A DNA stretch of 64,000 bases from Siphonodentalium dalli. Taxonomy: Eukaryota; Mollusca; Scaphopoda; Gadilida; Siphonodentaliidae. The stretch's first letter is position 1. Every line of letters begins with the position of its first letter. The notes beneath the pieces were generated by a model, which was not told the DNA's origin, did not search any database, and saw only the letters and a program-made list of their open reading frames with translations. The stretch covers positions 275,179,614-275,243,613 of the forward strand of contig CP136064.1 in NCBI GenBank assembly GCA_032622095.1, read 5' to 3'. Both the position numbers and the translations under genes were made by a program. Below, one piece after another: positions 7,767 through 37,825 of the stretch.

Positions 7767-8226
7767 TGACCCGCCATATAAAATCCAGTCGGAAGTCGGG
7801 ATTTTTTTACCCTGTGCCATTGCATTCTCTTATATATGCGAGTCGACCATAGGTCGCCTCGCATATATAAGAGAATGCATTGGCCTAACAATTTTTTACA
7901 ATTTTAGTAATTTGTTCTTGTATTCTTTAACAATTTTATAATTTCACCCATACAGAGCCCCAGACAAACACGAGCAGACAACACTCTTCTAGGTGCTTCT
8001 ATAATATGTGTGGGGCTCCCTGCAGGGTAATGAATGTTTTTTTTATTTTATGTCCTAAAAATTGTAAGAAACATTTATTTAAAAAACATGATAAAAATTG
8101 TTAGGCCAATGCATTCTCTTATATATGCGAGGCGACATATGGTCGACTCGCATATATAAGAGAATTCATTAGCACAGGGTAAAAAAAATCCCGACTTCCG
8201 ACTGGATTTGATATGGCGGGTCACAT
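7767..8226. mobile_element. foldback element carrying hairpin cassette (background A)
   Basis: Arms of about 137 bp (7767-7905 and 8089-8226) are inverted copies of each other. Each arm runs from a terminal word (TGTGACCCGCCATAT) through a T-rich tract into one 69-bp hairpin (7816-7884 and 8105-8173). About 185 bp separates the arms. The cassette boundary CCCTGTGCC follows TA on the left and is mirrored by GGCACAGGG then TA on the right. The sequences outside the cassette are unlike those in the other copies at 8.9, 14.3 and 37.4 kb. Confidence 0.75.
7816..8173. repeat. paired 69-bp hairpins, copy 1
   Basis: Hairpin 1 is 7816-7884 and hairpin 2 is 8105-8173. Each has 27-bp outer arms (gccaatgcattctcttatat and onward), one internal mismatch, a further five paired bases and a three-base loop (ATA or TAT). 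Hairpin 2 is essentially the reverse complement of hairpin 1. This copy has a few substitutions, such as gccattg at the left start and gaattcattagc at the right end. Confidence 0.9.
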
Positions 8227-8843
8227 CTGTATCCAAACTCACAGTTGTTTGCTCTAATATTCTGACCAAAGTAATCAGTCGAAGGATTCTCAGATGTATG
8301 GACTGGGGGTATTCCACGAACCACCACCGACTGGCTACTTTGGTCAGAATGTTTTAGAAAACTACTGAGTATTTCGGACCAAACAAGGTAATAACTTTTT
8401 TGTTAAATAAACTGGCATATGCTAATTTTTAATGCGTGGTACTCACCAACCTCGAAACCACGTGATTCCCCACCATGTTCTTGTTGTCACCATAAGCATA
8501 TATATATATATGTGTGTGTTAAGAGTACCTAAGAATATACACAATTTACAGACGTACCAGCAAATCGTTTGAATTTTACAATATTCGCCCACAAGCACTA
8601 TTAACACCGATATTAATTTTAGGTGAAGTAAACATTCGTATTTCAAAATAGTATGCATTCGCAATACTAATGTGCCTCCGATAAATGTACAGGAATGGTC
8701 CGTTTGCTCTGCAGCATGTAATACAGAAACCCGTTTCTTGATTCTCTTGTTAAAACGAAAGGCTCTTGTCCCACCTATGTATGAACAATTGAAAACAATT
8801 GATATATTTCTATCATCTGCGTGAGTCGTTTCGGAACATAAAA

Positions 8844-9110
8844 CCTTTACCCAACAAAACGGCAAAAAACGCCCAAATAAAGCTTCAACAGCCTAAAATA
8901 TCTTCGGTCTGTCTCAATAACAGTTATGCCCTGTGCCAATGCATTCTCTTATATATGCGAGTCGACCATAGGTCGCCTCGCATATATAAGAGAATGCATT
9001 GGCCTAATATGTTAAGCCAATGCATTCTCTTATATATGCGAGGCGACCTATGGTCGACTCGCATATATAAGAGAATGCATTGGCACAGGGCCGTTCTGTT
9101 GGGTAAAGGG
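8844..9110 (+). mobile_element. TTAA-type MITE with double hairpin (family 1), copy a
   Basis: The right end reads TGTTGGGTAAAGGG followed by TTAA at 9111-9114. The left end at about 8844 is a worn copy of the same terminal repeat (CCTTTACCCAACA). Inside are the tract aaataaagcttcaacagcc and hairpins at 8935-9003 and 9016-9084. Only 12 bp separate the hairpins here. The TTAA flank and CCC-starting terminal repeat are typical of non-autonomous piggyBac-type elements. No transposase is encoded. Confidence 0.75.
8935..9084. repeat. paired 69-bp hairpins, copy 2 (12-bp spacer)
   Basis: The hairpins at 8935-9003 and 9016-9084 have fully matched 27-bp outer arms, the single internal mismatch and a three-base loop. 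As they are reverse complements of each other, the whole 150 bp is one palindrome made of two palindromes. Confidence 0.95.
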
Positions 9111-9119
9111 TTAAATTGA

Positions 9120-11395
9120 ATAATAAATAGAGTAAGTAGATGTTATCCATCCAGTTTGATTCATGTGAGAAAAGCGAGCAACTTCTTCATTAAATTTGAT
9201 AAGATTTTTAGCTTTAATTATTCATAAATGTCATCCCCGATCAATGGTAATCCTAGGAAGATAAAGAAACTGCGTTATACTTCAACGTTTTTGAAATTAA
9301 TTGAGCGATAAACATCTTGCTATAGCAGCATTGTTCACAGTACAGTAACCAAGTAATTGTTTCTTTCAGGTTGGAAATAACAACAAGGTGGGCCTGTTAA
9401 AAACCAATCCTCTGCACATTGTTCATCATCGACCATGGACTCTCAAATAAAACAATCCATATAGGCACTCTATAGTAAATATTAACCACGGGTTGCCAAT
9501 ATAACTGTGGTAACATCCAATAGTGCCAGTGGTATTATATGACTGTGGAACCTGTATATGTTAGGTTCCACATAGTGCCAACTCGTTGAATCCAAGCTGA
9601 TTGGATGCGGCGATAACGTGTGTCGATCGTGTGGTGCACGATACATTATCAAATTGAAGTGAACAAAATGGCCGCCTCGAATCACTTTTATATATGGTTT
9701 TACAGAACCGTATAACAACGATGAAAACACAACATAATACTCAGCTTACACCTTTTATTTAAAACCGATCTACAGCATCGACTTACAGGTACACTTTTAG
9801 TGCGGCCTAAAAGTCTATGTTGTACCATAATTTTGGTGGTATTCAGAACTAACGAATCCGCAAAATGTTAAATAGTTTTATTTTTTCCAATTTGGGCGAC
9901 GTATGATCAAATGGCTACTTCTTGTACTGTAGAACAACTGGAATAATGTCAACAATGTCTGATTTAGGTCTGCATGTGAACCGGACAAGATGTTAATCTT
10001 CGAAACCGGCCGATGTCTGCAAACATTGACATTTTCGAGCTATTGATTCGACTGTTCTTCGTTGCGCCGATCCATGGCTGTTACACTTGGCAGTGTTGGG
10101 ATGTTTCTAAAGTTACACTAGAGTATAAATGCACCATAATAATTAACAAGAAATTTGATGTCAGCCACTGGTGACCAGTATACAGGACAATATCAGCAAC
10201 AGTAACAACGCAGACGTTTAGTCGGGATTGATTGATTACAACTTGTGTGTTGATATCCTCTTTGTAGGAATTAATGATCGCTAAATGACTAGTAGACACA
10301 GATCAGTCACTAATGATGCATCATATTCATCCATTTTCAACGAAACATCTGTGGCTATGAGTCGCGAACCATGTCGCAAAATCATCGTCCAGTTACAGAG
10401 TCTGTTGTTTTGAATGTTGAATGTTGAAACTGTTATCTTTCTTGACAACATGAATACCGATACATTGATACATTCCTTGCATACTGCCTTGGCGGTTGTA
10501 TCCCAATTCAAATTGAACAGCTGTGTAATGCATATCGTCTTTTCAGGCGATGTGTGGGTTTATTTTCATCTTATGTACTGATTTGATGGGGATAGCTGTA
10601 TCATATCGGATACCGCAATGACGTATATGCATTTATTTGTTTGAGTTTGTCTATGCATCATATATTACCTCTCTCTTGTAAATATTTCAATAATTATGCA
10701 CATGTATATATCATCTTCATTGATATGGGGGAATAAACCATCTCTCTCTACTGAGTCTGCTATTGTTTTGATTGTTTCTACGGAGTTTGAGACGATCTGA
10801 TAGGCCTACTTAGCGATAATATACGCATGGACTGATTATAAGATTTTCGACCGTTAATGGCCGCGACCAATCATTCTTCTCGATTCAATCAGTGGAATGC
10901 AGAGCCTCGGAGATTACTCAGGTAATTATACTTCACGTCAAAGGTACTCAATCCGTTCAGATGCTCCTAAATTACTATTAACACGATCAAGTGGTATCAT
11001 CACGATCGCGAACAGTTAATTAACACGTCGTATGATTGGTTATCTTACTGCGGTACTATTCCCACAAACCTAATTTATTTTATGTCAACTGAGCGCTTAA
11101 TAACTGTTAATAAATGATATTGAATATTTATTATATATAGTTCATATATACATGTAGGTTTTATTTACAGCGATGAGATTAAACTAATGTAAACTTCGAG
11201 AAAAACAGCGAGTTTGAACTAGCAATATCGAAACACCTGAGCGTTCGACGTTTGGCGCCATTTTCAACCACCAAGTTTTCAACTGATAAATACCCTATTT
11301 AAACCTCCAGCCTGGAGGCTCCAGGGGCATCTTTTTTCTAGACAAGCCCTTGAAATTGACATTGTTCTTATACAGTATTACTTTAAAATTGACAT
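9120..11395. other. no gene recognised
   Basis: Over 2 kb without a supportable gene. A small hairpin (gtggaacct/aggttccac) lies at about 9545-9572. A fragment of the AGGTACTC-type TTAA MITE lies at about 10940-10985, matching the element in the Kv intron. Open frames here are short and unrelated to any family I know. Confidence 0.4.
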
Positions 11396-11403
11396 TATCT
11401 TAC

Positions 11404-11656
11404 CCTAATGGCACTTCTGGCTATATAGTCGAATGAGACACAATGTGTCACCTTAGTTGCGCACCAAAATCGACAACATGTCACATGTTTTGTTGATTGT
11501 CTCGCTTTCGACATGCGCCAAAACATGTGAAATGTCGCATGTTTTGGTGCGCGCCTAACGTGACACGAGCGACAAAACATGCGACATTATGTCGTTTCTG
11601 TGCACAACTAATATCTCCTGTTTTGTCGCTTTCAGCGCGCACAAGTCATGCCATTA
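11404..11656. mobile_element. short inverted-repeat element, MITE-like
   Basis: CTAATGGCA at about 11405 is mirrored by TGCCATTAG at about 11647. Inside, words such as aaaacatgtgaaatgtcgc, acaaaacatgcgacat and caccaaaatcgacaacatg recur in both orientations, giving strong self-complementarity. No target duplication is obvious and no coding sequence is recognised. Confidence 0.5.
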
Positions 11657-12310
11657 GGAAGTGGCCCGATTAATATTCCAATGACCATACATTCTATATG
11701 TGTTTCTTCGACTCTTCTACGGCATCACCTTTTGTCGCCTTATTTCGAGGGCTGAGTCAACTATACACAAAACAATATTTCAATTAATAAATTGTGTACG
11801 GTGTATTCAACAAGTTGGTCACTGACCAACATTCGCGATTGCATCATCAATTAAAAAAACTAAATAAAATTCAAATACACATCGCATGAAAAATTCTTCA
11901 CCGACCTGTCTGTATATGACCGGCAGAACCCGCTGTCACTGCAAATAAATAAATATGGTCCACATTACTTTCAAGCTTTCCATTGGGACATACAAATGCG
12001 TTACTGAAAATATGAGATGAATTTGTATAACAACCAGTTGTTTAGTCTGTGTTTGTTTGAGCACAACACTACATACGTGCCATCAAACATGTTCTATATA
12101 AATACTATGTATTATTCGAGGGGTGCAGAGAATGGATATCGTATCTCTAACATTGGTATTTGCCCTTCATATTAAAGATGGTCTATCTCTTCCTAAATAC
12201 TTTTTATATAACAAAAAAGTTGGTCACTCTTCTTTTAAATATTTTGGAGCAAACTTTTGAAATTTACAACCACCAAATTTTAACTTTATAGAAGGCGTTC
12301 ACATATTTAA

Positions 12311-12520
12311 CCCTTTCTAATCTAAAGCATCATTGACGAATAGTTATCCCATAGGAAATGTTCAGATAATAATAAACATTTCCCTCAACAAATAGGACTC
12401 AATCTTTACTTCAATATATGTTGTCTGCTTAAATTACATGTACATCCCTACCAATCAATAACAAACCATGCCGATGTACTCTTTATAACTTACTGGTTGA
12501 ATCCATTTAGAAGTCAATAA
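12311..12520 (-). mobile_element. MITE2 (TTAA type), copy 1
   Basis: TTAA at 12307-12310 is followed by ccctttctaa and the family sequence aaagcatcattga, then ttatcccataggaaatgttc. The copy is reversed relative to the one at 13265 and its far end is worn. It lacks part of the central palindrome. Confidence 0.65.
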
Positions 12521-12577
12521 ACAGTACATTGAAGAGTTTGAGCATCGATACTTTATATACTATTTCTAGTTCGATAA

Positions 12578-12889
12578 CAAACGCCATGTAGCGCCCTCTC
12601 CGTTATCACTGCGATAGGTCACTGCCACAGGGGTGGTACTTTGCGGACCGATACATCTATTGTTACGTATCGTCGGAACTATATTTAGTCACCTATTATC
12701 TTATTTTGACCACCACAAGTTTGCAATAATTGTAATTAGTTCGGTGTTGATAAATATGAATTGATCCAGTCATAGACAATTTTAATCCTAAAACATAAGA
12801 ACTAAGATCATGTTAGAAATACTTACTAAATGTCCTTGTGGCAGTGGTATCTCAGCGGAGCGATGGGAGATGACTCTGCCTGGAGTTTG
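12578..12889 (-). mobile_element. Mutator-like MITE, copy 2, with 9-bp target duplication
   Basis: This is an inverted homologue of 6777-7093. It is bounded by a perfect 9-bp direct repeat, GTTCGATAA, at 12569-12577 and 12890-12898. The terminal words CAAACGCCATG and CTGCCTGGAGTTTG are imperfect inverted repeats. Two copies with independent 9-bp duplications define the element ends firmly. Confidence 0.85.
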
Positions 12890-12959
12890 GTTCGATAACT
12901 TCGAGTTTTAACATCGGTGGAGGCAACCCGTGTGCACGTGGGCATTATTACAATCACGT

Positions 12960-13130
12960 GCCAGTGCATTCTCTTATATATGTGAGTCTACCATAGGGAT
13001 CCTCACATATATAAGAGAATGCACTGGCTTACAAGGTCAAGGTAAATATTGTTAGGCCAATGTATTTTCTTATATATGCGAGGTTCCCTTTGGAGACTCG
13101 ATTATATACATGTAAGAGGATGCATTGACG
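12960..13130. repeat. paired hairpins, copy 3 (old, diverged)
   Basis: The first hairpin (12960-13028) keeps its arms with substitutions (gccagtgcattctc). The second (13056-13130) is strongly eroded. The terminal sequences of the TTAA MITE are not recognisable around it, so this is an older copy. Confidence 0.75.
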
Positions 13131-13264
13131 CACTGTTTTAGGAAGCTCCAGTCATGGAAGGATTAAGGAGTGAGTTTGATGGGATATTCTGAGTGTATGT
13201 TTTTTTCATATTCAGAACTGGAATAATACCGTCATTATATCTGATGAATTTTATCTAATTTTAA

Positions 13265-13505
13265 CCCTTTCTATAATAAATTGATTCTCCCAGTCAGTTA
13301 AAGGGTGTACATTGGAATGGTCTAGTATCGATTTGGAAGGATGTTAATGTGATAAAAATCAGACGGGAGATAAATAGAAATGCAGACGCAGTCATATTTA
13401 TTGATGGAAATATTCAGATAATAAGTTCAACGAACGTTTGTTGAACTTATCTGAACATTTCCTATGGGATAACTACTCGTCAATGATGTTGCAGTATAGA
13501 TAGGG
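13265..13505 (+). mobile_element. MITE2 (TTAA type), copy 2
   Basis: TTAA at 13261-13264 precedes CCCTTTCTATAATAAA. The far end reads gtatagatagggt, a worn inverted copy. The centre holds a palindrome (ggaaatattcagataa to ttatctgaacatttcc, about 13407-13461) around ttcaacgaacgtttgttgaa. The flanking phrases agacgggagataaa and catttcctatgggataacta recur in the other copies. No coding capacity. Confidence 0.8.
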
Positions 13506-14150
13506 TATATATTCTTAAATGTCAAATATTATGCTGGGAAACTGGATACATAAATGCGATATATTATATTGTAACCTCACTAATACGATGATGTCCTTCA
13601 TTTCAGGTAGCAGGACCACACTGGACATAAGTGAATAACAGTATAATTGTGTCATCCTGGGTCGTATGTAATGCATATGTACCATGTATTTAGATAAAAT
13701 ACTAACCTGATCTTATCTTATCTTATCAGAGGATAGTGTCTGAATAAATCGTGACCGCATTAGTTCGCCCAAACGAATCTTACCTTTACCCATAAGAGTT
13801 ATAGACCATTTGTAACAATATCTGCACCGATTGCTGCAAAGCGACCCGATTTTTGTAACAATGTGCGCAGCTATTATTATATTATTATTAGCTATTATTA
13901 GATTATGGACAATGATTTTTGTATGAAAGTGGTCCCTGTGGATAATTAAATTATGAGAATAATCAACTATATTATGGCATGTATTGTGAGAGATTAACTA
14001 CTAGTATTACATTAACATCGTGAATATTCAGCGACTGGCAAATCACAAGAATTTTCAAAATATACTACTCATAAACAATGCTAACGTGCTTATGGAAAAG
14101 CTATATACACGCAGAAGAATTATACGAATGCAGCTTAAGGGTACGTTCGT
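13506..14150. other. no gene recognised
   Basis: A+T-rich, with a short (att)n-like patch near 13870-13910. Nothing else is supported. Confidence 0.4.
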
Positions 14151-14154
14151 CCAC

Positions 14155-14275
14155 TGGCAAGTTTGCACGGCAGTTGTTGTAGGCATTTTCTCATAGAAAA
14201 CCCAATGGTGTCAGAATATGAACGGCAACATCCACATAAAATATGCATTTTTAGCAAAGGTAACGACATGAGAAG
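14155..14275 (+). repeat. fragment of the CACTGGCAAG inverted-repeat element
   Basis: The sequence from cactggcaagtttgcacgg onward (catagaaaacccaatggtgt, aatatgaacgg) matches one arm of the element at 42249-42612. The other arm is absent. Confidence 0.6.
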
Positions 14276-14336
14276 TAACATTTCGATAGTTCCACATGTA
14301 ATGGTGCTAATAACCTATTGCCTTAACCCTTTACCC

Positions 14337-14718
14337 AACAGAAGGGCCCTGTGCCAATGCATTCTCTTATATATGCGAGTCGACCATAGGTCGCCTCGCA
14401 TATATAAGAGAATGCATTGGCTTAACACATTAAAAATTATAAAATTGTTAAAGAATGTAAGACAAAATGGTAAAAAGTGTTAAAAAAAGATTTTTTTTAG
14501 GCCAATGCATTCTCTTATATATGCGAGGCGACCTATGGTCGACTCGCATATATAAGAGAATGCATTGGCACAGGGCATAACTGTAACCATCACAATGTGG
14601 TCAATGAGCCGGTTCCAATGATACCCATATTTGTATGGTTCTATTGAGACAGACCGAAGATATTTTAGGCTGTTGAAGCTTTATTTGGCCGGTTTTGGCC
14701 GGTTTGTTGGCTAAAGGG
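14337..14718 (-). mobile_element. TTAA-type MITE with double hairpin (family 1), copy b
   Basis: The target duplication TTAA lies at 14333-14336 and 14719-14722. The terminal inverted repeats are CCCTTTACCCAACA on the left and TGTTGGCTAAAGGG on the right. The hairpins are 14353-14421 and 14501-14569, separated by 79 bp of A/T-rich spacer. The copy is reversed relative to those at 8.8 and 37.4 kb. On its right side it contains the tract with ccaatgatacccatattt and the ggccggttttggccgg repeat. Confidence 0.9.
14353..14569. repeat. paired 69-bp hairpins, copy 4
   Basis: Both hairpins are perfect in their 27-bp outer arms and reverse complements of each other. The A/T-rich spacer is shared in inverse orientation with the copy at 37583-37799. 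Confidence 0.95.
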
Positions 14719-14724
14719 TTAAAT

Positions 14725-16270
14725 GACCTGTATAATTTATTTTTACATATTATTATTACATACACACAGACACAAGGTATGGGATGACAAGTGCTGTCAC
14801 TTACAGTAACATCCTCTCCCTATTGTCAAAACACTAAATATATACAAACTAAACGCTGACAAGAGCAAGGAAATATGTTATAACAATATAGCTATGTACA
14901 AGTAATGACAACTAACAGTAGAAAGAACTGATGGATTGTTTCACATGTTATGTATGAGAGAAGGAAGAGTGACACAACAAACACGCGATAGAGGTACTGA
15001 AATTAAACAAACGGTAGGAAGGATGGAGAAAAAGAGAAAATTAATATATGTCGTTTATTCATCCTTTGCATCGTCCATAGAGCACATGAGTGTGTTTGCA
15101 CTAATCCCGTGGTCATATTCATTTATTGGTTGCATAATTATATTCTGTTGATATAAAAAGAGATGGTACTATAAATGGCCGGATTTAGTCTACAATACCC
15201 CTTTAAGGTCTTATCTTAACATACCTGGTTGTTGAGAATGTGTTTCTTGTCAGGTATTGTTACCACATCCATTATATAGACCCGTATGGTCCTCAGCACG
15301 ATTCAATATAATTATGACAATTAAGGAGACACCCAAGAACAATGATAATGCAGGCGTTTTAACAATGTCTGCACTGATGGCTGTAACCTTCATTGGGATC
15401 ATTTGGCAACAATTTGCGCAGCTGCTATTAGAATTTGGTCAATTATCTATATATCGGTAAATTGTCCCATGCAGTAGGCAATGAAATTGTCGTGAATTGT
15501 ATCGGCGGCATGTTATGGGAAATAATGAAAGCACATTTGCACTGCAGTTTATATTGTGATAAGGATGCACCGGAAAGCTATTTGTGGTTGTCAGCGGTTG
15601 GCACAATAATATATATATTTGTTTTTAATATTTTTTTATTTTTTTTATTTTACCATCTAGAATTACCGAGATGGTCAAGAAAGTCCGATAGAAATTGTAA
15701 TGGTATGTTACATTTCCCCATCGTGTACACACATGTATACCTATAACACGACTGGCACAATAATATGTTCGAGATCGTTCTCTGCTACTCATTATGTGAG
15801 TTGATTCTGAAACCATGGTGTGTCCTTAAACTGTATACACCATGTAGCCACAATGAGGAGAAGCACGTTTTGATACGTCCAGCCAAAATGTCAAGAGAGT
15901 TTCAACAAAGAATTTCTAGTTATCTATCTGGCGAGAAATCAAGGAATTTCACAAATAATCATTTTCATTGTATATAGAATCTGACTAATTGTTAAGAGAC
16001 GACAAAACAATGGATTTTTATAAATTTGAGAGGTTGGAAATATTATTTTCTTTTTTGTTGTCCTTTTCGGTAACAAGAACTGCTAGAATATTTAATAATT
16101 TCACACAACAATCCAATCACCAATTAAGTCATTGTATTTTCTCCACGAGAGGAGGCTTCATTTGTATCATAATGTTGAGCTAGATTTGTAATTGCATAAA
16201 ATAGCATCATACCCCATTATATTATAATGAAGAATAAAGTAGTCACAAATATTCGACCCCAATGAAAACA
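14725..16270. other. no gene; one dispersed-repeat copy
   Basis: At about 15085-15205 lies a roughly 110-bp dispersed repeat (from tttgcactaat to acccctttaag) also found at about 27475-27580 and 58795-58910. The rest is A/T-rich sequence with only short open frames that I do not recognise. Confidence 0.45.
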
Positions 16271-16279
16271 GATGTGTAT

Positions 16280-16790
16280 ATGCTGTGTGGACCACCCAAG
16301 CAGGGATCAATCAACTGGATTTATGACTCAATGTTAAGAGGTATTGTGATCAGTTTAACTTGGTTATGAAACAATAAAACCCACAACTCATCCCAGCCCA
16401 AAGTTTGATTGATCTACAGGAATGACATAAACAATCTCGAATATAGAACATTGCCTTTCTAAATGAAAATAATTATTAAATTTCACAGATCAAGTATAAT
16501 TAAGTCTCCTCTCATGATCTTCAGATATGATATATGAACTGCACTTTTGAAAAAAATATATTTTACAGAAGTTCTTGGTACCTAAAAAAAAGTTAAATTT
16601 TAAATACTTTTCACGCCATAACAGTAAAGTAAATGCTCGGATCGATACAAGTCGGATAAAAGCGCCATTTTTTAGTATCTTGTAGGACAGCATCTGTAGT
16701 CTAGGAATTTTCTCAAGAACCAACTTTTTGACCGACGCAGAGCCGAGATTCAAGATGGCGTCCAAGATGGCCGCCGGTTTGACGGTGGTA
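16280..16790 (-). repeat. dispersed repeat, copy shared with 59.3 kb
   Basis: Read on the minus strand, this matches 59340-59830 on the plus strand. Shared phrases include gaggagacttaat, ttattttcatttagaaagg and ttcataaccaagttaaa. A minus-strand open frame (91 codons, 16765-16490) and a plus-strand frame at 59421-59621 share the ending CSSYI...EDxERRLN, but both look like chance frames in a repeat. The element class is unknown. Confidence 0.6.
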
Positions 16791-17940
16791 CACCTAATGG
16801 TTTTGCTTCTCGATTTGATACGGTAAACATAACGAATTCCCCCACATTATCTAAGAATGGTGTTTATGGAATAACAACCGCGACCTTTAGTTGAAAAATG
16901 GCCCCAATTATTGAAGATGGATGCCAAAATGGCGGCCAAAACATGAGAAATTGTGTTTTTTCCTTACTTTTTTATTAAATACTTTACAATTTTCGTGATA
17001 ATATAAGAGAAGATATCAACAATGTGTTCATTATTCGATGAAAGAGTTATGCACATTAAAGGCGAAGTGGTTTTGTTCGTACTGGTAAAAATGTGAGGTA
17101 GAATATGTGCTATATAAAATGAAATTATTCTCAGACTGGGTTTCTTTCAGTAAATGCTTAATAACCAACCATGAATGACACTGATGTCATCAATTCTATT
17201 TACGACACTACTATATGGTATGGATCAATTAAATACAAATTTGAATGTCGAGATATTTACAAATAAAATATCAATTTAGTAGTGGATTTACCACGAAATT
17301 ATGAAACACTAAATGACAGACCAATACTCATCAAACCCAATTTGTTTCTAAAAAAAAACAAGAACATGTGGAAGGTATTCTGCAACATATCTTCACCATC
17401 AGGCCTCGTATTCAAATTACCAATACTTAAATTAAGTGTTTTATGTCCAATTAAACACAACATGATTGAAGCTTATAATCGAAGGCATATTTGAGGTCGG
17501 AATAAGAAATAATATTATTTCCTTGTAATATATAGTGTCCTCAATTATTCCAGCAACAGAACATGAAACAATCATGCGAATAGCCCAGATTCAATAATAT
17601 ATACATTAGTGCAATGTATTGCATATATATATATCCATATGTATAATTTTGTGTGTTATATTGTTGCTGGTATATACTCCAGGGGGGGGGGCATGTGGTG
17701 GTAAGATAGGATCAGTAAATTTGAAAATGCCCTTTCTTTTACTAAATTGAATTGAACAATTCACTGCTCACAACCACATGTGCACAACTCCGTACATGGA
17801 AGTTTGCTTTTTGAACATTTGCACCTGGAATAAACCGATTTGCAAACACAACTAATCAACTATGTGCACACTCTAGCCACTTCCGTGATTGTCATCCATA
17901 CAGGAACAAAAGAATCATCAATACATTTCCACTCGAAGGA
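16791..17940. other. no gene recognised
   Basis: It contains ATGGCGGCC-type phrases at about 16925, an (at)n patch near 17625 and a run of nine G near 17683. No supportable gene. Confidence 0.4.
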
Positions 17941-18672: not shown

Positions 18673-18738
18673 AGGTGCTGGAAACATTGCATCTATTATG
18701 GGGCTTACAGTCCATATACCAGCCTGATATATAGAGGA

Positions 18739-18858
18739 TATCCACACTTTTTCAGTGGATATGGGTTATATCTCATTCGTGATGACAAAACATTGAATTC
18801 AAATGTTTTGTCATCACGAATGAGATTTAACCCATATCCACTGAAAAATTGTGGATAT
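18739..18858. repeat. 120-bp near-perfect palindrome
   Basis: The two halves (tatccacactttttcagtgg and onward) meet at GAATTC near 18795 and match with only a couple of mismatches over about 55 bp each. As RNA or extruded DNA this would be a long hairpin. Confidence 0.9.
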
Positions 18859-18860
18859 TC

Positions 18861-19047
18861 TGTTTATTATATACTTTAGTTACTTGCATATGGCCTCCAA
18901 TGAATGTCAATACATAAGAAATTTTAAGTTGACACATTACGCCCAAAAAATAGTCCCATATTTAAAACACTCAATAAGTATATATTTTGTTTTTATTATA
19001 TACTTTCGTTACTTGCCGATGTCCCCCAATGAATGTCAGTACATGAT
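18861..19047 (+). repeat. direct duplication, offset about 128 bp
   Basis: A block beginning ttattatatacttt and containing ccaatgaatgtca occurs at about 18862-18922 and again at about 18990-19047. Confidence 0.75.
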
Positions 19048-23764: not shown

Positions 23765-23999
23765 CCTACATGATCGTTAATACCGAAGCAGCGCAGCTCC
23801 CGTCACGAAAGGGTTAATGTTAGAATTGTTTGCTTCTTCCTTTTGTTTATTTTTAGCGACCACTCCTGTTTAATATTAAAGCCACATGGCGGTATGCGCT
23901 TCAATAAAATACAACCAATAATATTCGTTTTTGAATTTTAGTAGTAATTATTGTACCCACAAGATTCCTCTACAATTTAAGTTAGTAACAAACCTTTTT

Positions 24000-25812: not shown

Positions 25813-26324
25813 GTGACTATTTGAACAAAATACCATCGCGAAGGCCACCCGTGCCTTTAAATTGTAGTTAATTGTATGTACATATTTACCTGTCATTGAT
25901 AAGATATTTCCTGACTTCAGAACGTGGTAGTTGTATTCCATGAGATCAAACGTCCCGTGCTGTAAGCTTTATAACCATGGCCTTCGGTCCCGGATACCCG
26001 TCCTATTGGAACCTTCATGGTAATATTTGTTGAGCATGTTATATGTTTTCATTGTATTTGCGTCGATTCGGCTTCACTGTTATATGTTATTTTTTCCTAA
26101 AGGTTCCATTCCATATAAATAACAGCACAGCCGTCATCCCTTCATGACCTTGTTGATAAAATGGTTATTTTGGTTATTACTGTCAATCCTTTGAAAGATT
26201 ACACTTCATTTTAATTGGGCTTAACCACAGCAGCGGGTCGTTAACAAAACATGTAGAAATATATATTTAAAACGAGTCCGCCACTTTAAAAACGCATCGC
26301 TATCAATAGCGACGCGTTCGTTAA

Positions 26325-27297
26325 AGTGATGTGAAACACTCCGGCTGGGTGATCAAATAGAAATGGAGAATAATCTTGTTCAAAGTAGTTATATTTACGA
26401 ATATTAATCCAAATTAACAACACACACCGTTATTCATATATATTAATTAAATGCATAGGTGGCGAAATTATTTGTGTTAGATTATTGCCGATAGTTGCGT
26501 CCCGAATCGAGATGTAAATATTTACAATTGAGCGTAGTTCAGACGATGTTTTCTATGGAGTGGTATGGTCGATTTCTTTGAAATTTTCGTTGATTTTAGT
26601 AGAACGCTACATTCCACAATATGGCATAGTGCCTGAGTACTAACTTATCAATTTCATGCACCCAAACAAGTCCATAATATGTCTTTAAAAACATTTCGCT
26701 ACCGATGCGTTTGTTAAAGTGGTACGCTCGTTTTACTTTGTTAGAAAAAGCTATGACGCTAGAAAAAGGTGTATACGAAGAAATGAAATGGGAATAAAAT
26801 AATATGAGTTTAGTACAATTAAAAGCAGACGCGCTGTCCACCTGAAGTAAGACAACTCACGTCAAGAATCATTAAAGATCCACTTCCAATTTGCCACCAA
26901 TTTGTTCAAAACTGTTCAAGTTAAGTTAAAGACATATTGTTGACGTGTTCGGCTGCGTGGAGTTGATGAGTTAGTGCAGGCGCTAATTGCCAACATGGGG
27001 GATGCAGCACTCTACTAACATCGCCGAACATTTTAACGAAATCGGTCATACCGCTCCATAGAAAACATCGTCTGAACTACGCTCAATTGTAAATATTCAC
27101 ATCTCGATTCGGGACGCAACAATCGGCGATAAACTAACACAAATGATTACGCCATCGAGAGTCGTTGCATTTAATTAATAAATACGAATGGCGGTGTGTG
27201 TTGTCAATTTTGATTAGTAATCGTAAAGAATAACTACTTTGAGGAAGATTATTCTCAATTTGTATTTGATGACCCTACCGGAGTGTTTCACATCACT
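26325..27297. mobile_element. TTAA-type inverted-repeat element, about 970 bp (AGTG family)
   Basis: TTAA at 26321-26324 and 27298-27301 flank the terminal inverted repeats AGTGATGTGAAACACTCC / GGAGTGTTTCACATCACT. The inverted similarity extends about 290 bp inward on each side, through gagaataatctt, atttaattaat and gagatgtaaatatttacaat. The interior has no recognised transposase. A deleted copy lies at 42887-43247 and a terminal fragment at about 54440-54470. Confidence 0.85.
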
Positions 27298-27301
27298 TTA
27301 A

Positions 27302-28059: not shown

Positions 28060-28261
28060 CTTGGGTTGTCCGATATACATACAATTAAATTACAAAACAT
28101 GTCAGGGTTTAAATGGCCACAGTATATTTACGAAGTTGACAATGAACGATGTTTATCGAGCGTTGTCCGGAATTGAAATAGTCTTGTGTCGCTTCAAGTA
28201 GTTTGATTGGCTTAGATCATGTCATGTATATCTATACTCTAGTTACGCTCGTATATATCAC

Positions 28262-28710: not shown

Positions 28711-28863
28711 CGGGCGTAGCTAAAGTAGAGATTCGTGGCATCTTTGGTTGGCCAAATAGTTCGCGTTCGAGGCAAGCTCGTGATAATCGTGTTTTCTTCA
28801 CGTCACCATTAGCGACGACCGTGTATTGTTAATAACTACCACTGTATATTATACATATAGAGA

Positions 28864-28984
28864 GTAATCAGTTGGTTTAATTCGACGATCACGCGAAATA
28901 ATTCATGAGGGGAGCCGCGCCTGGTTCTAACCGGCTCCCAGATTGAATTATGTCACGTAATCATCGAAACCAATTGATTATTCT
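28864..28984. repeat. 120-bp imperfect palindrome
   Basis: aatcagttggtttaattcga at 28866 is mirrored by tcgaaaccaattgatt ending near 28980. The inner part pairs ggagccgcg with cggctcc. Few mismatches. Confidence 0.8.
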
Positions 28985-29254
28985 GTTTATTACACACTTT
29001 CCACCACTAAAAGGCGCTAATTATAAAGATAATATGTAACAAAATAGTCCCTGATCAGCTGATCGTGTGCGCTGACCGGGAGGCAATTCACAGGGGTGAC
29101 ATTATCACTTCTAATTCACACGTAGAAATCCTTTAAATCACAGCTAGTAAATAATAACTCTGATGATCGTGTTTACTGATATGTAAAGGTAGATTTATGG
29201 TGTGTATAACACAGATCGAGTCTTTGTTCCTCGCGATAAGAGATGAGAAAAAAT

Positions 29255-31210
29255 GATAAGATCATATCAGGAATCTCTATACTCTGTCTACGGCCGTAGG
29301 GATCATACTTCACCAATTCAAAACATGGGAAATATGTATGTGCTGACCTGTTCTGGTGGGGAACTTTATACCATTGAACAAACAACGCAGGGAATATATT
29401 TCTTTGTTATGACATGTTTCTTAATAATATCTGTCACGGTACGGTGTGGTCTCAGCCCGGGTTTGTGTGATCATGGTACGGTGCGGTCTCAGTTCGGGTT
29501 TGTGTGATCACGGTACGGTGTGGTCTCAGCTCGGGTTAGCGTGATCATGGTACGGTGTGGTATCAGTTCGGGTTTGTGTGATCACGGTACGGTGTGGTCT
29601 CAGCTCGGGTTTGTGTGATCACGGTACGATGTGGTCTCAGCTCGGGTTTGTGTGATCACGGTACGGTGTGGTCTCTGCTCGGATTTGTGTGATCACGGTA
29701 CGGTGTGGTATTAGCTCGGGTTTGTATGATCACGGTACGGTGTGGTATTAGCTCGGGTTTGTGTGATCACGGTACGGTGTGGTATTAGCTCGGGTTTGTA
29801 TGATCACGGTACGGTGTGGTATTAGCTCGGGTTTGTGTGCTCTCAGCTCGGGTTTGTGTGATCACGGTACGGTGTGGTCTCAGCTCGGGTTTGTGTGATC
29901 ACGGTACGGTGTGGTATTAGCTCGGGTTTGTATGATCACGGTACGGTGTGGTCTCAGCTCGGGTTTGTATTATCACGGTACGGTGTGGTCTCAGCTCGGG
30001 TTTGTGTGGTCTCAGCTCGGATTTGTGTGATCACGGTACGGTGTGGTCTCAGCTCGGATTTGTGTGATCACGGTACGGTGTGGTCTCAGCTCGGATTTGT
30101 GTGAACACGGTACGGTGTGGTCTCAGCTCGGGTTTGTGTGATCACGGTACGGTGTGGTCTCATCTAGGGTTTGTGTGATCACGGTACGGTGTGGTCTCAG
30201 CTCGGGTTTGTGTTATCACGGTACGGTGTGTGGTCTCAGCTCGGGTTTGTGTTATCACGGTACGGTGTGGTCTCAGCTAGGGTTTGTGTGATCACGGTAC
30301 GGTGTGGTCTCAGCTCTGGTTTGTGTTATCACGGTACGGTGTGTGGTCTCAGCTCGGGTTTGTGTGATCACGGTACGGTGTGGTCTCAGCTCGGGTTTGT
30401 GTTATCACGGTACGGTGTGGTCTCAGCTCGGGTTTGTGTGATCACGGTACGGTGTGTGGTCTCAGCTCGGGTTTGTGTTATCTCGGTACGGTGTGGTCTC
30501 AGCTCGGGTTTGTGTGATCACGGTACGGTGTGGTCTCAGCTCGGGTTTGTGTGTTCACGGTACGGTGTGGTCTCAGCTCGGGTTTGTATGATCACGGTAC
30601 TGTGTGGTCTCAGCTCGGGTTTGTGTGATCACGATACGGTGTGCTCTCAGCTCGGGTTTGTGTGATCACGGTACGGTGTGGTCTCAGTTCAGGTTTGTGT
30701 GATCACGGTACGGTGTGTGGTCTCAGCTCGGGTTTGTGTGATCACGGTACGGTGTGGTCTCAGCTCAGGTTTGTGTGATCACGGTACGGTGTGTGGTCTC
30801 AGCTCGGGTTTGTGTGGTCACGGTACGGTGTGTGGTCTCAGCTCGGGTTTGCGTGGTCTCAGCTCGGGTTTGTGTGATCACGGTACGGTGTAGTCTCAGC
30901 TCGGGTTTGTGTGATTTTTGTGACTTGTGTGAGTCGATATTGCACTAAACATTGAATTATTTCGCTGGAGAAATTCCATGAGTGTGATATATGTAAATCA
31001 AAATCGGCTCAAAGATAGTAATCTAACTGATGCAATCTCGAGCTGGGCATTCGCCAACTGTGAAATACGTATTAAGGAAAGCATATTAACTAAGAAATAT
31101 ATTACATGCACTGTTTTTCCAATGTTATAGACATCAAACAAGTCCCAGGTTTTTAACTGGCGGAGTTTACTCTTTACCGACTTAGCCAAAGTAGAGATTC
31201 GTGATCTGAT
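29255..31210. mobile_element. inverted-repeat element containing a 37-bp minisatellite
   Basis: Arms at about 29255-29425 (minus orientation) and 31055-31210 (plus) are homologous to each other and to the pair at 28262-28710. The interior is almost wholly a 37-bp tandem array, which starts about 8 bp after the left arm. The simplest reading is expansion of an internal repeat within one copy of the element. Confidence 0.6.
29433..30913 (+). repeat. 37-bp minisatellite, about 40 copies
   Basis: The unit is gatcacggtacggtgtggtc followed by tcagctcgggtttgtgt. Variants cluster: a version with tattagctcggg dominates at about 29700-29940, while 39-bp units with an extra tg are frequent after 30220. 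Because 37 is not a multiple of three, the open frames across it are artefacts of repetition. Confidence 0.97.
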
Positions 31211-31700
31211 GTAGGAACAAGTTTTGATCTCGTTTTATCTCTCTATACGAAGATCGTATATAGATTACAGCGTTCCTTGTGGAATGACCGGTGCAAGCAT
31301 ACTTCTACGTAGAGTCATTTTCGGGCTAGAGCTAGTGAAATTGCCACATTCAATAAGCGATATCACTGAGTCGCGGCCATATTGGATTCACACAGCTCCG
31401 TTCCGTGGTTTCAGAGATTCATCTCAGGCGTACGAGAATGACAAAATGCAAAAATATGCAGGTCATATACTGATGCGACCTTAGCAGTATAATGCAAAAT
31501 AATGAGTAAAATTAAGCGTGATTTAACTAAGTGGAAAGACCAGGAGTGCACCTGTAAGCACAGGCACAGTGTTTATTTATTTATACAGTACCAGTCAGAA
31601 GAAGCGGAATATTGAGTCGCGCCTTTATTGCGATATTGAGCGCGTTTAATTTCGAAAAAAGGCGCGATTATTAGTATCCTGTCATTGTAAAAAAAAAAAT

Positions 31701-32460
31701 TGGTTTCGTAACATTTTTTGGGGATTTTTGGCAACATATGTTTTCTTAAAGCCCATATACTGGAGGCATTGGAAACCAATGTTGACAAGATTCTTGTCGC
31801 TTAGTTGCCTCGAAAATGATGTTACCATAGCAACAGTATGTGATTTCTGAGAATTCTGGAAAATGACCATATTTGAAGTATATTAGTGACATCGGTGGAC
31901 TTATTGGTGATATAGTTATATACTAATATGTATATGTATATATTCTCCATGAAGGACGGCCAGTACTTATCTGAAAGGTCAAGGTCACTGTGCAAGGTCA
32001 GGTCATTGTCATTGATGAACCTATCTCAATTTGTTGCATCATATTGGTATTGTGTTAGATGCTGGAGATCATCACCTTTATTTTGAGCTATATGTCATAT
32101 CCAAAATGGTTGCCATGGCAACGGTGTACATTATCCAGTTTGGGATCATGTCCAAAGTGACTTATATTTATGCGATATATATGAGAGCCAACTTTGATGG
32201 TTTTTCCAAAAAAATCACGATTTTGTCCTCTTTCTGCCACACTAATGGTGTGGCCATTGTTTATTGGGAAGAACAATGTCTTATTTTAGGGGTTGGCATT
32301 GCCCAGTCTTATGTTTTGTAAAATATCTCGCACTAGTAATAATCACCCAGTGTACATGGTATATAGCTCAAGATAAAGGTGATTGGTTTCCAATGCCTCC
32401 AGTATATGGATTTTAAGAAAAAATAAGTTGCCAAAAATCCCCAATTTTTTTTACGAAACC
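31701..32460. repeat. inverted-repeat unit nested in the Tc1-like element
   Basis: About 77 bp at 31701-31778 (tggtttcgta to ggcattggaaacca) is repeated inverted at 32384-32460. The interior contains ccaaaatggttgccatggca and frequent cttgacct-type words. It may be an independent insertion or an internal part of the host element; the exact ends are unclear. Confidence 0.6.
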
Positions 32461-32791
32461 TGCGAAACCCAAATTCCAAAATTATGTCGGGCTTATTATT
32501 GCGATATTAAGCGCGCAAAATTCCATACAGACCCGATAGTGTTATATTAGATAAATACTGTGCATATAGTGTACATATAGTTATACATATAGCATTTACA
32601 ACTATAATTATATTGAAAACTACAAAATGGTCTCTATTTATGCAATAAACAATATAGAAGAAGCAATAATTTGCTTTAATGTCACAATTTTGAGCGCAAG
32701 ATATCGCAATATTAAACGCGAAATATTGCTCTTATAAGCTTTTCCACTTGCAATATTATTGCGATATTGGGCGCGAAAATAGCGCGCTTAA

Positions 32792-33593
32792 AGCCCCGGT
32801 TCCATATTCCCGATTTTCTGTCCCGAATTAGTATATTCGGCACCAATTCGGGACCAGACCAAATCGGCAGCATTCAAGATAATTCTGGACGAGTTTTATT
32901 CCAAAAAGCCGCCGAACTGATGCCGAATTATGACAAAATTTAATCGTCCCGAACATTGCCGAGTATTCCAGAATGCTTCCGAATTTCTTCCCGAATGATC
33001 AAGAATTATCCCGAACTGATACCGAAATTTCGTGCGAGTGGCTGCCGAATTGCCCAGATTACTACCGACTTACACCGAATTGTTGCCGAATACCCCGAAT
33101 CAATGCCGAACTGGTACCGAATTGATGCCGAATATATGCCGAATTGGTATTCAATTGCTGCCGAACGTCCCGAATCGATGCCGAATTTTGCAGATACACC
33201 GGATCTCAGTATAAAAGCAGCCACACATGGCGAATTCGGGAATAACTTACCGAATACTGCCGACTACTCCAGAATATCCACCCGAATATTGCCGAATACT
33301 GCCGACTTCTCCCGAATAGGTGCCGATTTGCTCCCGAATTTCTCCCGATGATTGACAATTCGGGAGCGATTCGGCTTGGTTCCCGATAGTTTTGAACATT
33401 TCAAAACTGTCGGGAGCGAGTCCAGAATTGTCCCGAATCGACCCCGATAGCACCGATATCCCCGATAATGTTCGGGGGTAAAAATTCACTGTCCCGACTT
33501 GTCCCGAATTTACTCCACGATTTTTGCAAAATTATGATTCGGGAGTCATTCGGGAACATTCGGGGTGGGAAATCGGGGATATGGAACCGGGGC
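32792..33593. mobile_element. TTAA-type element saturated with CCGAAT motifs
   Basis: TTAA at 32788-32791 and 33594-33597 flank the terminal repeats AGCCCCGGTTCCATA (left) and TATGGAACCGGGGC (right), which extend about 25 bp. The 800-bp interior is dominated by cccgaat, gccgaat and their reverse complement attcggg, repeated dozens of times at short, irregular spacing. Plus-oriented copies dominate on the left and both orientations occur on the right. The 131-codon open frame (32956-33351) follows from this repetition and is not a recognisable protein. Dense short motifs could be transposase-binding sites, but that is inference. Confidence 0.8.
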
Positions 33594-33786
33594 TTAATGT
33601 ACAACTTCTTTTGACTGGTACTGTAAATTTACAACGTGTGTTTATTGCTGACCGCATATTAACAAAGACACAATCATGTTGATAGTAGAGATAAAGAAAA
33701 AGCTATGTGCTCTCTCATGTGGATGACATATATGTATATGCATTATTTTTCTCGTATTTGTAGACGATGTGAGTGTGCACATGATG

Positions 33787-34560
33787 TATTCGTGTTGAAA
33801 ATCGATGGCTCGTGCGTGTTAGAGCGTGACTGATTATTGTAGTACGTGTGTAGAGAGAGAGATACTTTATTCCTCCATATCAACGGAGATTACATATATT
33901 ACAAATATATACAACAAAATAATTACATATAATTTGTTAATACAAGCTGGGAGCTATGCGCGTAAACACATTTGCTAAGTTTCAGTGCAATTTTACTGCC
34001 AGTATCGTGAACAGTTCTCAACACAGCCACATTTGGTATTAAACGCCAACATATACATTATGGCTAGGATGTGTTTAACCGCAATAAAACATTTCAAGAG
34101 AATTGGTCGCCATTCAGAGGTGTTCATTTATATGCTGAGGGTATATACTTTCTATTCCGAGCAGAGGAAACAAATGAAGCGAACGCATCGCTTTAATAAG
34201 AGATTCTCGTTGCAGAGAAGATGGATCTGCAGTGGGATACACCCACCAAAGCAGTACGCTAGAAATGTGTTTTTGCTGAGGCTATCTAGGAGCGCGAATG
34301 TTTCTATCCCATGTCTGTCGATTATTGCATACCAGAAAGCATTCCTCGTCACCTGTGCAAATTCTGACATACAATCATGATACATATGAGTAAGAAGATT
34401 AACGAATGAATTATGGCTATGAATACAGGTGGCATCATTATTGTACGTGGTTTTTGCCAGAATGTTCGCCATTTTGATGCACATAGGATAGTAATTCGTG
34501 TTGAAAATCGATGGCTCGTGTGTGTTAGAGCGTGACTGACTATTGTAGTAAGTGTGTAGA
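33787..34560 (-). mobile_element. 5'-truncated retroelement between 67-bp direct repeats
   Basis: A 67-bp sequence (attcgtgttgaaaatcgatg to gtgtgtaga) occurs at about 33787-33851 and again at about 34494-34560, 93-95% identical by eye. The enclosed 640 bp, read on the minus strand, has an open frame, then an A/T-rich tail, and ends ggaggaataaagta followed by a (tc)n stretch. This looks like the 3' end of a non-LTR element inserted with an unusually long target duplication, or an older duplication that recombined. Confidence 0.5.
34155..34493 (-). pseudogene. possible C-terminal end of a retroelement ORF
   Basis: On the minus strand an open frame continues from the left boundary of the duplicated flank to a stop near 34152. 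It includes MYHDCMSEFAQVTRNAFWY, FLAYCFGGCIPL and ends LLLKRCVRFICFLCSE. The segment is compositionally protein-like and lies directly upstream of a retroelement-style 3' tail, which suggests the end of an ORF2. I do not recognise a domain in it, so the identity is inferred from position only. Confidence 0.35.
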
Positions 34561-35180
34561 TGTCTGAGATTCCGTGTGTATACATGTACCACATATAGCT
34601 TTGTGAGGTAATGTCTCAGAGTGATCGCCCTTCTAAGTTAATTTAATTGCGTGCGTGTCCTTGTGCAGATTGATGGGTTGTACGCGTATATATGTTGCCT
34701 GATGAATGTAGTTGTTGTGTTGGAGTCCATCCTTTATTTATGAGGAGCACCCCACGCGTGGGTTAAAATAAATATAAAACCTAGTCTTGGTTGTGAAACA
34801 GTAAGATGTATTGGTTAAAATGTAATGGTTAAGATTGCATTACATATGTACACTTGGTTTGTTTGTTTGTTTGTTTGTTTGTTTTTTTTTAATTTGTGTG
34901 CAATGTTTATGTACATGTGACTTTGAGCTTCAATTAGCTCTCAGTAACTCGTATAGCTCTATTGGTTAAAATATTTGGTAGGTAAATAAAAACATTTAAA
35001 AAACTACAATTATTAAAATATAGGTTTATTTGTTTTTGTTTTTTGACATGTTTTTATGTCTTACAGTGGTCTTATCTTTCCATCATCACTGTGTAGTCAA
35101 TTGCTTTTTCAGTATGTTGGTTCTTATTGTATGTATTGAATATATGTAGTTCCTTTCTGCTTCTTCAATACAATGTAAGG

Positions 35181-35430
35181 TTATAGCCTTGTAGAGTCAT
35201 CTATTTCGATGAGTTGTGTGCAGTCAATCACTAGCTGGGTGAGTATTTCATGTTGTTTAAGTGGTTGGTTTCCACTGTTGCACAGTTTATTTTTGAGGAG
35301 ATGTTCTATTTTGCTCATATATTTACTTCTTTGCATGGAGTATGATGGGCATTTGGCAATGAAGTGCAATCTGTCTTCAGTTTGGCAAACTGGGCATATA
35401 TTGTTTGTTGGAATGTGTGCACGATTTGAT
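35181..35430 (-). pseudogene. non-LTR retrotransposon ORF2, C-terminal zinc-finger fragment
   Basis: Read on the minus strand the frame gives ICPVCQTEDRLHFIAKCPSY, then a helix-rich segment to a stop at about 35181. The spacing CX2CX6HX4C followed by PSY matches the cysteine/histidine motif near the C-terminus of many non-LTR ORF2 proteins (C--C-----E---H----CP-Y). Downstream (34735-35180) is A/T-rich with a (tttg)n tract at about 34859-34880, consistent with a 3' UTR. No reverse transcriptase is left upstream, so this is a 5'-truncated copy. Confidence 0.65.
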
Positions 35431-35569
35431 TTGATTTTCTTTGTTTCTGTATTTCACTCTTTGATGTAAAAATATAAGTTAACGACCACCTTTGTGTAAA
35501 TGGTAAGTGCTTGTATGTATAATGTACTCTTCATATCATGGAGGACAATAAACGTATATATAATACACG

Positions 35570-36300
35570 AGGCGAAATAATGAGTAAAATGAAGCGTAAT
35601 TTAACCAAATGTAAAGACCAGGAATGAACTGTGATCCCGCTTAGCTTATAATTGACATCGCACCACGTGACGAATGTGATCTCGCGTGAATCTCCATGTA
35701 TTCCGTCAACATGCCGGCTGTTTTAATTACATTTGTGAAATATCATATATTTATTGTTCTGGACACCATTGATTGGCATCCAGTATACGTGAACATTTGG
35801 GAATGTTGTTGTGAGGTCTAGTTGGAAACCCCATCTCCCCTCCATATACTGCATATCAGACTCACCCACACGTTTTATATGTCACCTCACACTCTTTTAT
35901 ATACCGATCTATACTTCGTTCCCCTATACTAAATATATTTTCAGTCAATTTCTTTCTATTACTCCATATGAAGAAAAAAATCTCATCTATCGACCCAGCC
36001 CACGCTGTGAGTAGCTGAGTAACATATATACCAACAACGATCTTCTAAAATTATTATGAACACCATTACCTAATATTATGTCATCATGCTCACAGTGTGG
36101 GCTTATTCACACGTAATCGGAACGACCCCCATAAGCTTTATGCTTGATGTCGGATCCAATAATCATGCTTCATATTTTGTACCATGCATTTTTTTTAATT
36201 ATATGGAATAAATATTGTTTACATTATAAACACATAACCATTTTGAGTATTTGGTCTATACATGTTAATTGTAGAGAATTATATTATGCAGAAGGGCCAG
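35570..36300. other. no gene; dispersed-repeat fragment
   Basis: At about 35570-35630 a phrase (aataatgagtaaaatgaagc, then aagaccaggaa) repeats one seen at about 31487-31550. The remainder shows nothing supportable. Confidence 0.4.
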
Positions 36301-36310
36301 TGCAACTCCA

Positions 36311-37119
36311 TTGTAACGCTGGTGACTATGCTGGTGTTGTAACGATGGTGAATATGCTGGAGTTGTAACGATGGTGACTATGCTGGAGTTGTAACGATTG
36401 TGACTATGCTGGAGTTGTAACGATCGTGACTATGCTGGAGTTGTAACGATGATGACTATGCTGGAGTTGTAACGATGGTGACATGCTGGAGTTGTAACGA
36501 TGGTGACTACGCTGGAGTTGTAATGATGGTCATTATGCTGGAGTTGTAACGATGGTGACTATGCTGGAGTTATAACGATGGTGACTATGCTGGAGTTGTA
36601 ACGATTGCGACTATGCTGGAGTTGTAACGATGGTGACTATACTGGAGTTGTAACGATGGTGACTATGCTGGAGTTGTAACGATGGTGACTATGCTGGAGT
36701 TGTAACGATGGTGACGATGCTGGAGTTGTAACGATGGTGACTATGCTGGAGTTGTAACGATGGTGACTATGCTGGAGTTGTAACGATGGTGACTATGCTG
36801 GAGTTGTAACGATGGTGACTATGCTGGAGTTGTAACGATGGTGACTACGCTGGAATTGTAATGATGGTAATTATGCTGGAGTTGTAATAATGGTGATTAT
36901 GCTGGAATTGTAACGACGGTGACTATGCTGGAGTTGTAACGATGGTGACTACGCTGGAGTTGTAACGATGGTAATTATGCTGGAGTTGTAATAATGGTGA
37001 TTATGCTGGAATTGTAACGACGGTGACTATGCTGGAGTTGTAACGATGGTGACTATGCTGGAGTTGTAACGATGGTGACTATGCTGGAGTTGTAACGATG
37101 GTGACTATGCTGGAGTTGA
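36311..37119 (+). repeat. 26-bp minisatellite, about 31 copies
   Basis: The unit is gatggtgactatgctggagt plus tgtaac. Most copies are identical. A variant block with taattatgctgg and ataatggtgatt appears twice, at about 36865-36900 and 36970-37005, indicating a duplicated higher-order segment. Confidence 0.97.
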
Positions 37120-37250
37120 TGTACACGTCGGTGTCCCTGACCCGTGCCTTTCTCGAAAATATATACCTGGCGCTGAGAGCACTGACCTCTATACAATTTT
37201 AATAGTTATTTTTGGTTTGAATACATACATTTATCCATCACCCTTGATTT

Positions 37251-37255
<5 letters not shown>

Positions 37256-37283
<28 letters not shown>
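37256..37283. repeat. (TA)n microsatellite
   Basis: A run of about 13 TA dinucleotides just 3' of the 26-bp array. Confidence 0.9.
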
Positions 37284-37286
<3 letters not shown>

Positions 37287-37434
37287 ATCAGAAGTGGGAC
37301 ATTATTCGGTCAAGTTACATGCTAACGCGTTTGGGTCAATAGCAAATAAATACAGATAGTATCGTGTTTGATATTGGATTGTGTATGCAATTGTTCAATA
37401 ATTACGATGTGATAGAAGTACAGCTCTCTGTTAA

Positions 37435-37825
37435 CCCTTTACCCAACAAAGCGGCCAAAACCGGCCAAATAAAGCTTCAACAGCCTAAATGTCTTCGGTC
37501 TGTCTCAATAGAACCATACAAATATGGATATCATTGGAACCGGCTCCTTGACCACATTGTGATAGTTACAGTTATGCCCTGTGCCAATGCATTCTCTTAT
37601 ATATGCGAGTCGACCATAGGTCGCCTCGCATATATAAGAGAATGCATTGACCTAAAAAAAATCTTTTTTTAACACTTTTTACCATTTTTTCTTACATTCT
37701 TTAACAATTTTATAATTTGTAATGTGTTAAGCCAATGCATTCTCTTATATATGCGAGGCGACCTATGGTCGACTCGCATATATAAGAGAATGCATTGGCA
37801 CAGGGCCGTTCTGTTGGGTAAAGGG
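37435..37825 (+). mobile_element. TTAA-type MITE with double hairpin (family 1), copy c
   Basis: This is the best-preserved copy. TTAA lies at 37431-37434 and 37826-37829, with termini CCCTTTACCCAACA and TGTTGGGTAAAGGG. The left part carries ggccaaaaccggcc and ggaaccggctcc. The hairpins are 37583-37651 and 37731-37799 around a 79-bp T-rich spacer. Same orientation as the 8.8-kb copy. Confidence 0.93.
37583..37799. repeat. paired 69-bp hairpins, copy 5
   Basis: The arms are nearly perfect: one change (gcattgac) at the inner end of the first hairpin. The spacer contains ttctttaacaattttataat, also present in the spacer of the 7.8-kb copy. Confidence 0.95.

Follow-up and report, generated by a model that had tools for sequence, protein, structure and literature searches.

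The 64-kb stretch of contig CP136064.1 analysed here (the window; G+C = 38%) contains five inverted pairs of long hairpins, each pair with its spacer forming a cassette (A to E), and we consider it likely that this cassette is a non-autonomous DNA-transposon module which became lodged in a piggyBac-like miniature inverted-repeat transposable element (MITE) and spread with it as a composite. That the hairpin cassettes are transposon-derived can be said with high confidence; that the cassette was separately mobile or captured is somewhat favoured. Real as the hairpins are, and unusually tidy, they probably belong to mobile elements and do not represent a new type of gene. The explanation draws its support from the occurrence of the cassette in two contexts that have its edge in common (A versus B, D and E) and, in worn form, in a third (C and a sixth, remnant copy), and from the TTAA and CCCTTT-type inverted repeats that flank D and E.

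An inverted-repeat search and direct inspection place the pairs where the original prediction had put them. Nine of the ten hairpins are near-perfect palindromes of 69 nt with a loop of 3 nt, as predicted for all five pairs, the tenth (C2, the second hairpin of C) being worn and 73 nt long. Cassette A, the long form (7810 to 8179, plus strand), comprises a CCCTGTG edge, hairpins at 7816-7884 and 8105-8173 about a 220-bp spacer, and a CACAGGG edge. Cassette B (8929 to 9090, plus) has hairpins at 8935-9003 and 9016-9084 with only 12 bp between them, cassette D (14347 to 14575, minus) has hairpins at 14353-14421 and 14501-14569, and cassette E (37577 to 37805, plus) at 37583-37651 and 37731-37799, the last two with spacers of 79 bp; the spacer of A aligns with that of D and E and is a longer form of it. 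In the worn cassette C (12958 to 13128, plus) a 27-bp spacer separates C1 (12960-13028) from the decayed C2 (13056-13128). The spacers thus measure 12 to 220 bp, not the 12 to 185 bp first given. The reciprocal arrangement claimed for the pairs is borne out: once the second hairpin is reverse-complemented it differs from the first at 0/69 positions in B, 0/69 in D, 1/69 in E and 4/69 in A, the scoring covering these four pairs and not C with its worn, 73-nt C2. Watson-Crick pairs occupy, of 33 stem positions, 31 and 29 in the A hairpins, 32 and 32 in B, 30 in C1, 32 and 32 in D, and 31 and 32 in E. Half of the hairpins (B1, B2, D1, D2 and E2) are identical after orienting, and the sole unpaired position in the B and D hairpins is a T-C mismatch present in all five of these.

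Comparison with randomised sequence rules out chance palindromes. Inverted repeats with arms of at least 25 nt and at most 2 mismatches occur at nine loci in the window and at none in each of five first-order Markov sequences, and with arms of at least 15 nt the counts are 19 versus 1, 1, 1, 1 and 2. Eight of the nine long-arm loci are the hairpin family (B1 and B2 merge as one locus, and C2 falls below the criterion). The ninth is an unrelated single palindrome at 18738-18858 (element 18729-18867, with a 7-nt centre between arms of 66 nt that match at 92%). The strong stems that had been predicted are equally evident from folding: D1 reaches -35.4 kcal/mol as DNA (z -15.6) and -54.3 kcal/mol as RNA (z -14.3), C1 has a z of -12.4 as DNA, and even the worn C2 folds as RNA at -28 (z -5.9). 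The B pair, taken as 150 nt, prefers a single long stem (-88.8). A tandem array can be rejected, as the repeat listing has only B, in which a unit of 81 bp in 1.9 copies corresponds to its two hairpins, and identity with a tRNA or Rfam RNA is likewise rejected, with no match to either (Rfam at gathering scores). The hairpin arms, for example at 14353-14421, contain GCCAAT and TATATAAG, which we take to resemble CCAAT and TATA boxes, possibly by coincidence.

Cassettes B, D and E each sit within a copy of one larger TTAA-ended MITE, which the original prediction overlooked. Copy D (14327-14718, minus strand, 392 bp; 14323 to 14722 with its TTAA at 14323-14326 and 14719-14722) and copy E (37435-37825, plus, 391 bp; 37431 to 37829 with TTAA at 37431-37434 and 37826-37829) lie in opposite orientation and are 97.25% identical over 400 bp in the self-comparison. 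The shorter copy B (8843 to 9110, plus, 268 bp) aligns to both ends of D and E, although most of the spacer is missing from it, as is a stretch on the left side of the cassette; the right TTAA of B is at 9111-9114 and its left TTAA is worn. TTAA is therefore present at five of the six ends (D and E 4/4, B 1/2), and a 14-bp terminal repeat, CCCTTTACCCAACA, is found with at most 2 mismatches at all six, five of which begin CCCT. A scan of the window with this repeat gave seven matches, of which the one outside the B, D and E ends (1279) is unrelated. In the description given in sections of PMC2872659, piggyBac elements are marked by TTAA duplications and by terminal inverted repeats of about 12-19 bp with the terminal motif CC[C/T]T, and we therefore read B, D and E as insertions of one MITE family that, judged by its end sequences, is very likely piggyBac-like. 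The cassette in D and E starts 20 bp from one MITE tip only. Being copies of a single MITE, B, D and E represent one occurrence of the design, not three, so that the five locations originally counted stand as five pairs but not as independent ones, and to them must be added the sixth copy, which had been missed. A second TTAA-associated repeat family, with copies no longer than about 230 bp (12301-12510, 13260-13498, 37984-38218, 41186-41414, 43248-43457 and 50374-50539) has TTAACCC at an edge in four of its six copies (12307, 13261, 41411 and 50374), and its alignment contains no hairpin.

The common unit in A, B, D and E is CCCTGTG-hairpin-spacer-hairpin-CACAGGG. Its edges are exactly CCCTGTGCC in seven of eight cases, the eighth (the right edge of A) having one change, at the last base, and the bases directly beyond disagree among A, the left flank of B, D and E, and the right flank of B, D and E. 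None of these four cassettes has TTAA directly outside its CCCTGTG edges. Outward of the edge in A lies a 44-bp inverted repeat, 98% complementary (left arm 7765 to 7808, plus; right arm 8182 to 8225, minus; both from the inverted-repeat search), with no TTAA. The sixth copy, a very worn remnant at about 641 to 749 (plus), retains one hairpin and the start of the spacer, and its outer end resembles that of C: on one side the two have in common an outer stretch unlike the other contexts. To the right of C this terminal-repeat-like stretch (13148 to 13166, minus) is followed by TTAA; the equivalent position of the sixth copy has none. A lone TTAA end at 23799-23817 is similar to this outer end of C (3 mismatches allowed in 15 bases). 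The outer sequences of B, D and E have no match to those of A or C in the self-comparison. The hairpins agree while the outer ends of B, D and E differ from that of C, whose end is worn, and A is without TTAA. A 316-bp repeat beside C (12578-12887 versus 6778-7093) ends before the cassette and yields no empty site.

The hairpins are also better preserved than their surroundings, as had been claimed. Among B, D and E variable columns number 1/138 in the hairpins and 9/112 elsewhere in the MITE (Fisher p=0.006; gapped columns, the spacer and 12 edge columns excluded), and the pairwise differences are 0/138 versus 8/113 for B and D (p=0.0015) and 1/138 versus 7/112 for B and E (p=0.024). A and E differ at 5/138 hairpin positions and at 11/72 aligned spacer positions (p=0.005). 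Random decay in the stems, which the original prediction had named as grounds for its own rejection, is seen in part: A1, A2, E1, C2 and the sixth copy have uncompensated changes, C2 and the sixth copy being decayed outright, whereas six of the eight substitutions in C1 give three restored pairs (5/65, 24/46 and 30/40) and two leave broken ones (29/41 and 31/39). C1 was selected post hoc from ten hairpins, and in simulations under four rate settings the probability that at least three restored pairs arise in it by chance ranges from 3e-5 (uniform) up to 0.013, the latter with tenfold CpG rates and a strong transition bias. The pair 24/46 could reflect two CpG deaminations, and the change near the loop may be partly common to C2 and the sixth copy.

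In the mechanism we propose, the cassette would be a miniature element with edges CCCTGTG...CACAGGG, both of whose terminal inverted repeats are 69-nt palindromes. This element or module would have become lodged in a piggyBac-like MITE, close to one of the MITE's ends, by capture or by its own movement, and the composite would have spread by TTAA-targeted cut and paste to give B, D and E. A piggyBac-type transposase supplied by an autonomous partner elsewhere would bind the ends and move these copies, and the subterminal palindromes may be transposase-binding or regulatory sites; the cassette could be an accessory binding site, a restraining site or a passenger. Sections of PMC11707139 describe a 19-bp palindrome at both ends of piggyBac, asymmetric in its distance from the tips and bound by the cysteine-rich domains of the transposase, and subterminal sites in piggyBat that restrain activity; the cassette palindrome is far longer than the 19 bp of piggyBac. 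The identity of the arms may be maintained by template switching between them, a process that could hold the stems perfect without selection.

The window as a whole appears to be animal-type nuclear sequence, because it holds a Kv channel exon (44663-45640, minus strand; Pfam Ion_trans), whose best solved relatives are Kv1 channels, and a reverse transcriptase open reading frame (ORF) at 62608-63366 (Pfam RVT_1), presumably of non-LTR type. It also contains long minisatellite arrays at 29434-30855, 36311-37118, 47711-49507 and 56895-58659, with units of 37, 26, 30 and 32 bp (or multiples), and a foldback-like repeat at 26320-27301 with arms of 229 bp at 82% and an extra single copy at 42882-43254.

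Several observations weigh against a cassette that became lodged in the MITE and moved with it. The cassettes A, B, D and E have no convincing target-site duplication: the flanks of the A, B and E cassettes, and of the A outer repeat, match at 3 bases or none, and the 3-5-base matches at D are produced by the inverted-repeat edge itself. This argues against simple cut and paste at those edges, or is a sign of age. The right end of C begins TCC after its TTAA, not CCC, and has no matching left end, the left terminal repeat of B begins ACCT, and a Pfam scan of 12 of about 100 listed ORFs found no transposase, matching only the reverse transcriptase and the ion channel. The preservation of the hairpins is less clear between D and E (1/138 versus 7/170, p=0.079), some of the variable MITE columns are the worn left end of B, and the rate comparisons are post hoc choices among few related copies. 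Covariation over all hairpins (11 rows, 7 distinct) does not exceed that of shuffles: three pairs have double-sided changes versus a shuffle mean of 1.7, a count that 111 of 500 shuffles attain, and the score is 0.079 versus 0.058, which 51 of 500 attain. When the pairing is slid, 0 or 1 double-sided changes are counted. Finally, the evidence base is one 64-kb window and the literature.

One alternative is that the cassette has always belonged to a single piggyBac-like MITE lineage, of which A and C are rearranged or eroded members, and was never independently mobile or captured. The TTAA that terminates the right side of C, the fit of the CCCT cassette edges to the piggyBac CC[C/T]T motif (from the same sections of PMC2872659) and the lack of a target duplication for the cassette itself all favour it, but what lies beyond the CCCTGTG edge in A is a symmetric 44-bp inverted repeat with no TTAA, and the outer sequences of B, D and E go unmatched in A or C; we regard this native origin as possible though rather unlikely. 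The missing target duplication would also suit a mechanism like that of the bacterial REPINs, in which an enzyme recognises the hairpins as single strands and moves the pair without duplicating its target. The inverted palindrome pair and a spacer that is variable in length and less conserved point the same way, and the layout matches that of REPINs as described in sections of PMC3116915. However, the Pfam scan, which covered 12 of about 100 ORFs, found no such enzyme, the host is animal-type, and the TTAA ends already account for the movement of B, D and E, which together make such a mechanism very improbable. A little less improbable is an animal REPIN-like module in a broader sense. This would be a transferable cis-element, made of a reciprocal hairpin pair, that has passed from one MITE family to other, unrelated ones; selection or copying from arm to arm would maintain its palindromes, and it would be moved or recognised in the form of single-strand hairpins. 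Retention of the hairpins for a function as expressed double-stranded RNA, microRNA-like or siRNA precursors would accord with the RNA fold (-54.3 kcal/mol, z -14.3), with their lower variability than their neighbours and with the origin of miR-548 from Made1 MITE hairpins reported in sections of PMC1784062. Against this stand the lack of any Rfam match at gathering scores and the decay of several copies without compensation. Animal pre-miRNAs, moreover, do not typically have a near-perfect 33-bp stem closed by a loop of 3 nt, and we hold a small-RNA function to be very improbable. The likelihoods we attach to the lodged, co-mobile module and to its alternatives overlap in part.

A mobile module within a piggyBac-like MITE, if confirmed, would provide a clean example from nature of different MITE families having a hairpin module in common. 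With it one could test whether subterminal palindromes aid piggyBac-type transposition or hold it back, and whether template switching alone, without selection, preserves perfect palindromes. For annotation it counsels caution: hairpins of this kind are likely to be transposon parts, and microRNA gene calls at them need reads.

The original prediction knew of no described element with this design, which was overstated with respect to the REPINs (PMC3116915) and to mitochondrial double hairpins (PMC2800124), as both appear in sections of those papers, though a eukaryotic element of exactly this build was not found among the matches listed in the literature searched, weak evidence of absence given that repeat databases and most subscription papers were outside its scope. 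The string TTATATATGCGAG has no match in that literature, the two hairpin patterns have no exact match in GTDB prokaryote contigs or in the IMG/VR viral collection (searched as exact patterns only), and the A flank and MITE end have no exact match in IMG/VR. REPINs resemble the cassette by description, in that two palindromes stand in inverted orientation about a spacer less conserved than the units, and the cassette has just this arrangement. REPINs are bacterial, with much shorter REP units and a link to RAYT transposases (sections of PMC3116915), in contrast to the long hairpins, animal-type genome and TTAA-ended MITEs found here; RAYT was sought only through the Pfam scan of 12 ORFs. The mitochondrial hairpin elements are repeated, possibly mobile and sometimes double (sections of PMC2800124), whereas the present pairs lie in TTAA-ended MITEs and in surroundings that appear nuclear. 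Made1, a near-perfect 80-bp palindrome with a 6-bp centre, is close in size to one hairpin of the cassette, but it is a single hairpin from Hsmar-type elements with no inverted pair (sections of PMC1784062). The coral elements CMITE and CMITE-IN share with B, D and E their TTAA ends, CCCTTT termini and an internal region more conserved than the termini; in the coral elements this region is common to families whose termini differ, for which the cassette in its different surroundings may be a parallel, and elements are nested in elements, as is proposed here (sections of PMC2872659). The CMITEs are about 100 bp long (same sections) and the words 'hairpin' and 'palindrom' do not occur in the text of that paper, whereas here the internal region consists of paired 69-nt palindromes near one end. 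Going by the sections of PMC3116915 and PMC2872659, paired palindromes are already known from REPINs, and CMITEs already provide a conserved core beneath TTAA termini that differ.

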